64,000 nucleotides of DNA, taken from Chloroflexota bacterium. Lineage in GTDB: Bacteria > Chloroflexota > Dehalococcoidia > Lucifugimonadales > UBA3495. The stretch covers positions 1-64,000 of the forward strand of contig VXOG01000037.1 of assembly GCA_009840165.1 (NCBI GenBank). Direction: 5' to 3'. Below are positions 22,073 to 49,907 of this stretch, in pieces. Below the pieces are notes generated by a model. The model ran no database searches. It had not been told where the DNA came from and saw only the letters and a list, made by a program, of their open reading frames with translations. How positions within the stretch are numbered: the first letter of the stretch is position 1; every line of letters begins with the position of its first letter. Both the position numbers and the translations under genes were made by a program.

Positions 22073-22447
22073 ATGAGCGTACTAGAAACCGAAATGCACC
22101 CTCTGCAAGCTCTGGAAGCGGCGGAGAAGGAATACTGCGGTGGAAATTACCGCAAAGGTTGCCGTTTCCTGTGGCGAGCCACCGAAGTTACCTTCAAAAT
22201 GCTGGCAGAAGCCCACGGTTTGGACTCAACCGACCTTTATGCCGTAGCCGAGGATCTTGATGCAAAGCTGATCTTGTCCAACCGAAAGCATCACTATCTC
22301 GGTGGCTTGATTTCCGGAAAATTGGCCAAAGACCATTACGAAATGGACGTGCTGGAAATCTACGACGTTGAAGGATTGCACCGAACGATACCCCGTTTCG
22401 TCCGTGAATACCTCAGCGAGTTGGATGGTAATGACGCAAGCCAATAG
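22073..22447 (+). CDS. Small HEPN/PaREP1-like helical protein (first of a pair)
   Basis: 124 residues, mostly helical. The segment EAAEKEYCGGNYRKGCRFLW then RATEVTFKMLAEAHG follows the pattern E-x(n)-GxY-x(2)-A/G-x(3)-LW-A(A)E-x(3)-K-x-LAE that I also see in the pair at 62191-62945. This resembles PaREP1/HEPN-fold proteins, which often act in toxin-antitoxin or nucleotide-based stress systems. No classical Rx4-6H RNase motif is obvious. The next gene overlaps it by about 20 bases, so the two are coupled. Function unknown. Confidence 0.6.
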   Translation: MSVLETEMHPLQALEAAEKEYCGGNYRKGCRFLWRATEVTFKMLAEAHGLDSTDLYAVAEDLDAKLILSNRKHHYLGGLISGKLAKDHYEMDVLEIYDVEGLHRTIPRFVREYLSELDGNDASQ

Positions 22448-22829
22448 CCGAAGTCGGCGAAGGGCGGAGCGTCACTATACTAGAGCAGTCAGTTACCGGG
22501 ACGACGCTAACCTGCTTCTGATTCAGTACCATAAGTCCGACTCGGCCGGTGCCTTGATGTATGAAGCGGCCAAGCAGTGCATCAACGCCGTCGCTAACTT
22601 GAACGGCCTGAACCCCGGTTCCACTGGAGCTAAAAGGCGATATCTTGAGTCCGTTGCGGCGAGACCATCCAATAGTCTGCTCAACTTGGAAAAAGGGTGG
22701 CAGGCAGTGTCGTTGCTGCACATCCACGCTGACCGAGGCCATCTGAACTCGAGCGAATTTCGGGCTGCGTGGCTGCTGGCTCAAGACTTCGTTGACGATA
22801 TGCTGGTAATCTACGCCGGCGGCGGGTGA
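22425..22829 (+). CDS. Small helical HEPN-like protein (second of a pair)
   Basis: 134 residues from the ATG at 22425; an in-frame ATG at 22431 is an alternative. It overlaps the preceding gene. The basic N-terminus (NSRSRRRAERHYTRAVSY) is followed by helices with the pattern SAGALMYEAAKQCINAVANL NG, like the other small helical proteins in this window. The conserved C-terminal part (LNSSEFRAAWLLAQDFVDDM) is helical too. I infer that both members act together; a nucleic-acid-related stress module is possible but not shown. Confidence 0.55.
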   Translation: MVMTQANSRSRRRAERHYTRAVSYRDDANLLLIQYHKSDSAGALMYEAAKQCINAVANLNGLNPGSTGAKRRYLESVAARPSNSLLNLEKGWQAVSLLHIHADRGHLNSSEFRAAWLLAQDFVDDMLVIYAGGG

Positions 22830-30625: not shown

Positions 30626-30636
30626 ACGGCGACGGA

Positions 30637-30666
30637 GGCAGGGGCTGTTGACGCACGGCCCCTGCC
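30637..30666. terminator. Hairpin after the double esterase gene
   Basis: Nine-base arms GGCAGGGGC and GCCCCTGCC with a 12-base loop, 12 bases after the stop at 30625. No clear T-run follows. Confidence 0.5.
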
Positions 30667-30783
30667 CTGTCTGTGTCAATCAGAGACCATTGGTGACGAT
30701 GACGTTGGCCTCCCCCAAGAGTACACTGCAATGCTGGCGCGGAATAGCAATCGCAAACCTTACGTACCGCGCATAATACAAAT

Positions 30784-31380
30784 ATGTATCCCTCCGAAGA
30801 TGTGAGAAATGCTATGTCCACCGACTTTAACGTAGAAAGGAACACGTTTGACCTAGATACATTCCAGCAAATCCTCGAAGCGATGGACGGCTATCATGTC
30901 TTGCCATGGCTCAAAAAATCCGGCAGCGATGTCGGCGAATCGACCGATGTAGAACCTTGGGAGTTGCCGGATATGCCGCAAGTAAGCGTTGACAATTGGC
31001 GCTACCATGTGGGTTTTGCAATTGACCGTGGATTTGTGGAGTGCTGGACTCCCGACATGAAAGACTATCCGACAGTCCGCCCTATGAAAGATGTCTTCTT
31101 TGAGCAGATGGCCATGGCGGCGAACAGGAAAATAAAACCGACAGCACACGGACAGGATCCGAATGTTTCATCTCAACTGCGGCCCGCGAGATTAACCTAT
31201 GCGGGGAAGGAGTTCATAGATTCTCTGAAGAATCCCTCCGTCAAGGAGGAAGCAGTGGAAGCATTAAAGAAATATGGAGTACCGACGATGATGCAGGTCG
31301 CAGTAGAAGCTGCCAAACATTTCATACCGACAGAAGCGACTGTTGTAGCGCCTGGTACGGTGTCCTGCGTAGCTGAATAG
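30784..31380 (+). CDS. Hypothetical protein, weakly DUF2513-like
   Basis: 198 residues; starts at 30784 or at the in-frame ATG at 30814, neither with a strong ribosome site. The middle (QVSVDNWRYHVGFAIDRGFV) followed by LTYAGKEFIDSLKNPSVKEE resembles DUF2513, in which a winged-helix-like domain ends in LTWxGxEFLD. DUF2513 proteins are often in accessory regions near conflict genes, but their function is not known. The neighbour 67 bases downstream is the membrane GIY-YIG protein, so the two may form one unit. The AT content here is higher than in flanking genes, a possible sign of transfer. Confidence 0.5.
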   Translation: MYPSEDVRNAMSTDFNVERNTFDLDTFQQILEAMDGYHVLPWLKKSGSDVGESTDVEPWELPDMPQVSVDNWRYHVGFAIDRGFVECWTPDMKDYPTVRPMKDVFFEQMAMAANRKIKPTAHGQDPNVSSQLRPARLTYAGKEFIDSLKNPSVKEEAVEALKKYGVPTMMQVAVEAAKHFIPTEATVVAPGTVSCVAE

Positions 31381-31447
31381 TTCAGGTGATGCCAATTACG
31401 TCATTAGGATTTGGGTTCTTCAAGATAGTATTTCTGAGGTGACCTAA

Positions 31448-32563
31448 ATGAATATTGTAGGCCGATTCCTAGCCAATAAAGCGATGAACGCCGCTTGGCG
31501 TTCTGCTACACGGAGTGGGGTGAACTCCGACCGACCCGCTGACGACGCGGAGTCTGCTAAAACGTTCTTGGCGATCATGACAGTGGTGGCCTTACCTATA
31601 TTGGGGATGGCCTCCTGCATGACAGGGAACGTCGGCATGTTTTGGTTGGGCCTATTCCTATTCTGGGTGGCTCCGACCGCTGTTTTTGTCGCAATATTTT
31701 TTCTGCCGGACCGTTGGTTCATATCTCGACAGCGAGGTTCTCATCTGAAGGAGCGGGCCGGTCGCCGTACAATGCGGGTTGAGCGCCCAGATCAATGCCC
31801 TGCGTCTGGTGAGAAATGTGACGGCACAACGTGTCGCATTATCGAGGGTTCAATCAAGTGCTACAGAGAATGGCTTGAAAGGGATAGTTCCAGTGAGCAT
31901 ACCAGCATAGCTGGTGTCGTCGAAGAGATACGCAGACATACAGATTATTCGGAAATCAACAGTCAATCCACTTGTCCAGTTACCGGCGATAAGTGCAAAT
32001 GGGAGAATGCGCCGTGCTCTGAACCAGATGGCATATCCTCGTGTATTGAGCGGAGGTTCAATAGGAGATTGCCTGAAGTACATTGCCCGGCGTCTGGCTA
32101 CAAATGTATTTATGGGCTGTTCATGTGTCGTGATAGCGATGGGTCTATCTCTTGCTTGCGAGAATCTCGTGAACGGAATAGTTCCCGTGAGCAGCCGACC
32201 GCTATCGAGGCCGATCTTGATGCGCCTCCGGCTACGGACGTAACACCAGCGATCGAGCGTCCTTACACCGTGTATTTCATACAAGAGAAAGAAGACGATG
32301 GGAAGTGCAAAGTAGGCATAACCTATTCGTTGGCAAGTAGGCTGCGCAGTCTCCAAACGGGCAATCCGAATGATCTTGAAGTGGCTCATACAATCCACGT
32401 TTCCAGCAAAGTGGTGGCTGAGCAGATTGAAGAAGCGGTACTCAATGCCGTCAGGAACGCGGGAGCGGAGATGAAAGGTGAGTGGTTCCAAAGCGCAATT
32501 CTGCCGTGGGCCAAACAAGTTGCTGAGAAAGAGCGGCAGCGGATTGATAGCAACGTCTGCTGA
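31448..32563 (+). CDS. Membrane protein with three Cys-rich repeats and a GIY-YIG (T5orf172-like) domain
   Basis: 371 residues, start supported by GAGGTGA upstream. Two membrane helices lie at about 39-58 and 64-86. Three Cys4 repeats follow: C117/C124/C129/C138, C176/C183/C190/C199 and C213/C220/C227/C236, each starting CPxxGxKC and ending DGxxSC-like, which should bind zinc or form disulfides. The C-terminus (273-355) matches the GIY-YIG/T5orf172 fold: YTVYFIQ, CKVGITYSLASRLRSLQTGN, and E328 in AEQIEEAVLNAV. GIY-YIG enzymes cut DNA. A membrane-tethered, Cys-repeat version is not one I know. Base composition is more AT-rich than the surroundings. Confidence 0.7.
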   Translation: MNIVGRFLANKAMNAAWRSATRSGVNSDRPADDAESAKTFLAIMTVVALPILGMASCMTGNVGMFWLGLFLFWVAPTAVFVAIFFLPDRWFISRQRGSHLKERAGRRTMRVERPDQCPASGEKCDGTTCRIIEGSIKCYREWLERDSSSEHTSIAGVVEEIRRHTDYSEINSQSTCPVTGDKCKWENAPCSEPDGISSCIERRFNRRLPEVHCPASGYKCIYGLFMCRDSDGSISCLRESRERNSSREQPTAIEADLDAPPATDVTPAIERPYTVYFIQEKEDDGKCKVGITYSLASRLRSLQTGNPNDLEVAHTIHVSSKVVAEQIEEAVLNAVRNAGAEMKGEWFQSAILPWAKQVAEKERQRIDSNVC

Positions 32564-32593
32564 CCGCCGCGTAAAGGCCGTAAGTGGTATCAT

Positions 32594-48848: not shown

Positions 48849-49907
48849 ATGATGACCTCCTCGACTACCCTACTAATCCCATATGGCTTGGACGCCACAG
48901 GCAGGCTGGTCCATGTTGACGGTGTACCCAATGGGAAGGACTGCGGGGCGCGTTGCCCGAGCTGCCATGCTCCGCTCATTGCGAAGAACAATGGCAGTGA
49001 AAAAGTTCATCATTTCGCGCACGAGGGGTGGAACCCCGAATGCGAAGGCTTGTTGCACAAGACGGCTAAACTACTTCTGTATCAGCGAATCGCCGACGCG
49101 ATGGCTGGCGGTCATCGGTTGATGATTCAGTGGCGCTGCACCAGTCCTGATTGCGGACTGCACACCCAAAACCTGCTGGGTGGTGGCGTATTGAGCCACG
49201 TTCTAGTTGAACACCGCCTACGCGACTGGAACATCCAACCTGATATTGTCTGCATGGCCGGCGAGACCCCGAGAGTATTGATTGAGGTTGTGGATACCCA
49301 TGCTCCCGAACTGCCGGTCATTGCTGCCGGTCTGCCGACGTTGGAATTTCACTTCTCCGACACAACGGACTTGGCAACGCTATCCAGCGAGACACTCTCT
49401 TGTACGATAATTCACAACAAAGATTGCCCTGACCCTAAATGTGACATATGCCGCAAGCCTGCAAGTGTAGGGTGTTGGCACTGCGACAAGTGCGGAGAGC
49501 ATACCGATCCCAGGGCACACGGCCCTTACTATTGTCAGCAGTGTCAAACCTGCAACGACGATGCTCATGTTCATTGCCCGGATTGCGGTCAACAGTTTTA
49601 CGGCCCCTATTCGCGTTGCTACTGCTGCAACCTGGCCCGGCGGCTAGGCCGTGTGCCTTGCTACCGCAGAGGGTTGACCATCTACAACCACCGGCATTGC
49701 AGGCAGTGCCACGCAGAAATGGACAGTGATAAACAGCAACTGTACGAAAATTGTTACCGCTGCAATCGGGCGATTGCGATGGCGGATATGGAAGAGGTAA
49801 AGAAGGTAAAGAAGGAAGAGGAGGATCGAAAGGAACGTTGGCGCCTCGCCAGCCGGGAAGAGCGCGAGGCGATGTTGGCGGAATGGCGCTCAATGAGACG
49901 CGGGTGA
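48849..49907 (+). CDS. CoiA-like nuclease protein with multiple zinc-binding CxxC motifs
   Basis: 352 residues. The N-terminal part resembles CoiA: a CPSC pair (ARCPSCHAPLIAKNNG), KVHHFAHEG, then a helix with LLHKTAKLLLYQRIAD, and the PD-(D/E)xK-like core IQPDIVCM and RVLIEVVDTHA. CoiA acts in DNA processing during competence in Firmicutes. The C-terminal half has over a dozen Cys in CxxC pairs (CPDPKCDICRKP, CWHCDKCGE, CQQCQTC, CPDCGQQ, CYCC, CRQC, CYRC), suggesting four or more zinc ribbons, which CoiA lacks. A charged coiled tail closes it. A nuclease in defence or DNA uptake is likely. Confidence 0.65.
   Translation: MMTSSTTLLIPYGLDATGRLVHVDGVPNGKDCGARCPSCHAPLIAKNNGSEKVHHFAHEGWNPECEGLLHKTAKLLLYQRIADAMAGGHRLMIQWRCTSPDCGLHTQNLLGGGVLSHVLVEHRLRDWNIQPDIVCMAGETPRVLIEVVDTHAPELPVIAAGLPTLEFHFSDTTDLATLSSETLSCTIIHNKDCPDPKCDICRKPASVGCWHCDKCGEHTDPRAHGPYYCQQCQTCNDDAHVHCPDCGQQFYGPYSRCYCCNLARRLGRVPCYRRGLTIYNHRHCRQCHAEMDSDKQQLYENCYRCNRAIAMADMEEVKKVKKEEEDRKERWRLASREEREAMLAEWRSMRRG

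Follow-up and report, generated by a model that had tools for sequence, protein, structure and literature searches.

Slx1 is a GIY-YIG nuclease with a C-terminal RING-type zinc domain, and it is one of several described systems that share parts with the protein considered here. The closest in plan is SNIPE (PD-lambda-1), a membrane-bound DUF4041/GIY-YIG nuclease in which a TM anchor, a DUF4041 middle domain, and a GIY-YIG domain follow one another (Nature 2026, PMC13190303). SNIPE cleaves phage DNA during injection, its anchor stops self-cleavage, and its defence depends on the catalytic Glu and is lost without it (PMC13190303). The N-terminal regions of SNIPE homologues are highly variable, and two TM helices occur in 7% of them (PMC13190303). 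Repeated Zn fingers are usual in another group, the T5orf172 homing endonucleases, where they are present in 200 of 229 proteins (PMC10448857). Finally, ICP1 Gp88/Odn is a chimeric T5orf172 nuclease used in genome conflict (PMC8263062).

Here, we describe a 371-aa protein that combines a membrane part, Cys4 repeats, and a T5orf172 domain. Its gene lies at 31448..32563 on the forward strand of the window, that is, the whole 64,000-nt stretch of DNA analysed, and was delimited by ORF listing, Pfam, and a structure model; the source genome and SAR202 cluster bacterium bin87 are members of one genus. Two transmembrane helices are predicted in residues 36-88 (31553..31711, forward strand): by hydropathy the hydrophobic helices occupy about residues 36-60 and 62-88, and in the predicted structure they run from 31-57 and 62-85. 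The residues after helix 2 comprise 9 K/R versus 4 D/E, an excess that fits a cytoplasmic C-terminus, where the Cys4 sites would hold zinc.

Behind the putative hairpin, motif scan and unit comparison find exactly three units of the form C-x6-C-x4-6-C-x8-C, with 12 Cys, starting at residues 117, 176, and 213. All lie on the forward strand, repeat 1 at residues 117-138 (31796..31861), repeat 2 at 176-199 (31973..32044), and repeat 3 at 213-236 (32084..32155). When the protein was shuffled 100,000 times, three units never appeared, and at least one appeared in 174 of the shuffles. Unit 1 shares 56% identity with unit 3, the tail beyond the last Cys included; the units therefore look like duplications. 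As the Cys region is modelled with low confidence (pLDDT mostly 30-57), the binding of zinc by the repeats, which is probable, is read from the Cys pattern. A sequence search with this region matched no solved structure at a meaningful E-value. With 18 K/R and 21 D/E the region is slightly acidic, a composition that does not favour non-specific DNA binding.

The C-terminal part, residues 273-370 (32264..32557, forward strand), is a T5orf172/MUG113 GIY-YIG domain according to Pfam, alignment, the structure model, and structure matches. Both Pfam matches pass their curated cut-offs: T5orf172 (PF10544) with E 2.1e-8 and 35 bits against a cut-off of 20, and MUG113 (PF13455) with E 9.8e-6 and 26.5 bits against 22.3. 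Hydropathy, the shuffles, and Pfam thus agree with the preliminary description, which had placed two membrane helices, three Cys repeats with 12 Cys, and a GIY-YIG/T5orf172 domain in one chain. In the structure model, for which 21 viral T5orf172 relatives served as alignment input, residues about 270-370 are predicted at pLDDT about 90-98. Among the solved structures that best match residues 266-370 are Slx1 (Z 7.8), which is the closest fold, At-HIGLE (7.6), I-TevI (5.3), and UvrC (4.1), all of them GIY-YIG nucleases. Taken alone, Z values below 8 are weak by the tool's own note, but the top eight rows all come from one superfamily, in line with the Pfam result. Models of viral T5orf172 proteins also match the domain, with E about 1e-6 to 1e-7. 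A sequence search with the domain found no solved structure at a meaningful E-value. A GIY-YIG fold is predicted with high confidence for the C-terminal domain; a different fold of this region, which would have refuted the preliminary description, is thus not what the prediction shows.

The Tyr, K-I/V-G, Arg, Glu, and GEWF positions of the GIY-YIG family are all kept, as Y276, K288-V-G290, R298, E328, and G344-F347. Across an alignment of 22 sequences K288, G290, R298, E328, E345, and W346 do not vary, and Y276 is almost constant. In the 371-aa protein Leu332 takes the place of a His that is nearly invariant in the family, and nuclease activity is for this reason not assured. The replacement would suit a domain that has become a non-cutting DNA-binding or sensory module, in which case the protein would be a membrane-tethered DNA binder or a zinc/redox sensor. 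Many T5orf172 proteins are labelled as DNA-binding-domain proteins in UniProt, and 12 Cys in three units could answer to the metal or redox state. However, the GIY-YIG site still has its Tyr, Arg, and Glu, and the His at the position of Leu332 is not known to be among the classical GIY-YIG catalytic residues. The retained Glu is the residue whose loss abolishes SNIPE defence (PMC13190303). We consider a non-cutting module rather unlikely.

Within the collections searched the 371-aa protein is an orphan. A pattern-based scan of the species-genome collection found no other instance of the full architecture, and no full-length relative was found in 99 relatives, in plasmids, or in viral contigs; with a single query, all these scans reach close relatives only. 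In phages, whose genes are the closest sequence relatives of the T5orf172 domain, the match covers the T5orf172 part only and no full-length relative was found. A Cys4 profile run on 400 genomes of the phylum gave, outside the window, just weak matches (no per-genome E better than 2.5e-4). Of the two strongest, one is an upstream stretch of a urease-like ORF and the other is an Arg-rich ORF, and both were rejected as relatives. Neither this profile nor a fixed-spacing DNA pattern found a relative in viral contigs. The two-helix membrane part and the Cys repeats are also absent from 25 viral T5orf172 loci and from the order- and phylum-level T5orf172 proteins examined.

A second T5orf172 gene is present in the same genome (L002:1321-2056). 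It encodes 181 aa with no membrane helix, and 16 bp after it lies an ORF for a putative two-helix membrane protein of 57 aa. The two could possibly represent a split version of the anchor-plus-nuclease plan; there is no detectable sequence similarity between the 57-aa ORF and the membrane part of the 371-aa protein.

The gene lies in a segment of about 1.95 kb (30626..32581) that alignment to the empty sites of two congeners (G007 and G009) identifies as a foreign insertion. By this alignment the left junction falls directly after the stop codon of a hydrolase gene and the right junction at 32580-32582. A GC-rich hairpin with no strong T run (30634..30671, forward strand) marks the left edge. 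The fold of 30626-30680 has -34.5 kcal/mol (z -4.7); a terminator scan made no call at the hairpin, which is perhaps the transcription end for the upstream gene. The hydrolase gene and a class-III aminotransferase gene stand side by side in 13 of 13 congeners. The gap between them is 32-108 bp in nine, holds a Uma2-type ORF in three (G002 by Pfam, E 2.5e-13; G006 and G008 by similar sequence), and contains an apparent Uma2 remnant in one (G005). It resembles a small cargo hotspot, which is empty, filled by Uma2, left with a Uma2 remnant, or occupied by the present insert depending on the genome.

The insert contains two genes, the one for the 371-aa protein and, upstream of it, one for a 188-aa protein. 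Their GC is 0.50-0.52 versus 0.66-0.67 in the neighbours, and their GC3 is 0.53-0.54 versus 0.84-0.89. Since GC3 is low and the site is empty or Uma2-filled in congeners, both genes are, on composition and site, of foreign origin. The preliminary description, which had noted their AT-richness and suspected transfer, holds on both points, with the site empty in 9 of the 13 congeners and bearing a Uma2-type gene or remnant in 4. No integrase is present in the insert, no direct repeats flank it, and no tRNA was found in the window; next to the 371-aa gene there is no recognised defence gene and no integrase. Two other low-GC stretches occur in the window. The one at 48849-49907 (GC 0.54) holds an ORF of 352 aa that is rich in Cys, matches the CoiA N-terminal model weakly (E 3e-5, under the cut-off), and has no PADLOC match, and the one at 22073-22829 (GC 0.545) holds two overlapping small ORFs with no family match above cut-off.

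A rival reading takes the protein for a former phage homing endonuclease, in which T5orf172 and Zn-finger repeats gained or were fused to a membrane segment and which is now selfish or neutral cargo with no defence role. Such repeats are the rule in T5orf172 homing endonucleases (200/229; PMC10448857), the domain is closest to phage genes, and the gene stands alone between metabolic genes. Yet the insertion is exactly between genes, at a spot reused by Uma2-type genes, and not within a target gene. The repeat spacing is also unlike CapR, Pfam gives no match of the protein to DUF723 or DUF4397 at E up to 10, and a membrane anchor is of no obvious use in homing. An origin of this kind is judged unlikely.

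The upstream gene is listed as an ORF from 30784. Its relative, 65% identical, starts at the position of the ATG at 30814, and for this reason 30814 is preferred as the probable true start over 30784, giving a 188-aa product (30814..31380, forward strand). Pfam reports DUF2513 at E 2.9e-5 and 24.8 bits, under the cut-off of 29.6 and in the C-terminal part only. Comparison by hhalign with other DUF2513 proteins gives probability 95.8 and E 7e-9 over 117 aligned columns (residues 19-183). The weak DUF2513 pattern that had been proposed for this gene is thus borne out by a sub-cut-off Pfam match and a near whole-chain hhalign match, and by profile comparison the product is a divergent DUF2513 protein. 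As the Pfam score is below the curated cut-off, it is named DUF2513-like and not a curated member. Its structure model reaches pLDDT 33, a sequence search of solved structures gave no meaningful E-value, and DUF2513 is not mentioned in the literature searched.

The two genes had also been viewed as one linked system. They are on the same strand, 67 bp apart, at the same site, and alike in GC3 (0.54 and 0.53). In such a two-gene system the DUF2513-like protein would regulate or target the membrane nuclease. However, the DUF2513-like gene has a single close relative, in SAR202 bin87 (64-67% identical). This relative follows an unrelated gene of 1186 aa at a distance of 18 bp, and at the threshold applied no T5orf172 protein is encoded in the bin87 genome. 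DNA similarity between the insert and bin87 ends at the boundaries of the DUF2513-like gene. Within the order, DUF2513 occurs in 12 and T5orf172 in 28 of 250 genomes, never on one contig. Because the bin87 relative has no T5orf172 partner and the families share no contig in the order, it is likelier that the two genes travel together as cargo than that they form a fixed pair. The preliminary description had named homologues that are rarely neighbours as a refuting outcome, and by this measure the idea of one linked system is not upheld. A functional pairing is possible given the common site and the 67 bp spacing, but a two-gene system of the kind just outlined is improbable, and the gene for the DUF2513-like protein probably came as a separate or optional piece of cargo, not as an obligate partner.

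In bin87 itself, the 1186-aa ORF directly before the DUF2513-like gene (MPNC01000022.1, locus L116:4431-8576) is weakly Dsr1-like by PADLOC (E 5.6e-5) and shows below-cut-off similarity in Pfam to the pPIWI-associated nuclease (pP_pnuc_1). It lies near BrnT/BrnA and a phage-type integrase, and was found in bin87 only among 60 genomes searched. The region is a candidate defence locus.

The best reading of the 371-aa protein is a SNIPE-like membrane nuclease variant, with a function that we infer. It would be a GIY-YIG nuclease anchored in the inner membrane and carried as mobile cargo, cutting membrane-near DNA, most plausibly injected phage DNA; this is put forward tentatively, with slightly more doubt than belief. 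The two-helix hairpin would anchor the protein with both ends in the cytoplasm, and the three Cys4 modules, probably with zinc bound, would form a flexible spacer that contacts DNA or a partner protein, standing in for DUF4041. The T5orf172 nuclease, if active, would cut DNA passing near the membrane, the target most plausibly being phage DNA during injection, as for SNIPE, and anchoring would keep the nuclease away from the chromosome. The anchored nuclease is supported by the pLDDT, structure matches, kept residues, charge, accessory distribution, low GC3, the site shared with Uma2, and the SNIPE precedent. Against it stand the lack of DUF4041 and of a PADLOC match, the change of His to Leu332, the slight acidity of the Cys region, the lack of a homologue, and the absence of a defence neighbourhood.

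A wider proposal, which we regard as doubtful, is that the protein belongs to a new class of antiphage nucleases that are tethered to the membrane. Cys4 zinc modules would replace DUF4041, a hairpin and Zn repeats would have been joined to a phage-type T5orf172 domain independently of SNIPE, and DNA cutting at the entry point would be a recurrent strategy. For SAR202-type marine bacteria the 371-aa protein is a candidate for a role in defence. If the anchored-nuclease reading is true, it would be a second anchor-plus-GIY-YIG architecture with another middle module, evidence of a modular plan that has been used more than once, and it would suggest a search for anchored T5orf172 proteins lacking DUF4041, which present defence models would miss.

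Of the known systems, Slx1 resembles the protein in pairing GIY-YIG with a zinc domain, but it is a eukaryotic structure-specific nuclease that has a partner, no membrane anchor, and an unrelated zinc domain. ICP1 Gp88/Odn likewise joins T5orf172 to an unrelated targeting region; that region is RepA_N-like and origin-directed, and ICP1 Gp88/Odn is not reported to have a membrane anchor (PMC8263062). The phage T5orf172 homing endonucleases (CapR/DUF723/DUF4397) share with it T5orf172 and several Cys-based repeats in one chain (PMC10448857). The repeats of the 371-aa protein, however, fit no model tested and have another spacing, unlike CxxC...CxC, and the protein carries a membrane hairpin and is encoded on a bacterial chromosome between host genes. 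With SNIPE it shares a putative N-terminal membrane anchor, contained in the first 90 residues and followed by an intervening region, a C-terminal GIY-YIG domain that keeps the catalytic-type Glu, and the status of an accessory gene, and by analogy it may work like SNIPE. It differs in having three Cys4 repeats instead of DUF4041 (no Pfam match to PF13250 at E up to 10) and two helices instead of the usual one. DUF4041 was not found in 247 genomes of the order, in a search without a positive control, and PADLOC gave no match to the protein at E up to 1. Since DUF4041 is absent, we do not class the protein as SNIPE. The preliminary description knew of no described system with this layout, which holds for the full chain but overlooked SNIPE (PMC13190303) and the T5orf172 homing endonucleases with repeated Zn fingers (PMC10448857). 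Known parts are combined here in a new way, and the resulting layout follows a plan close to that of SNIPE.
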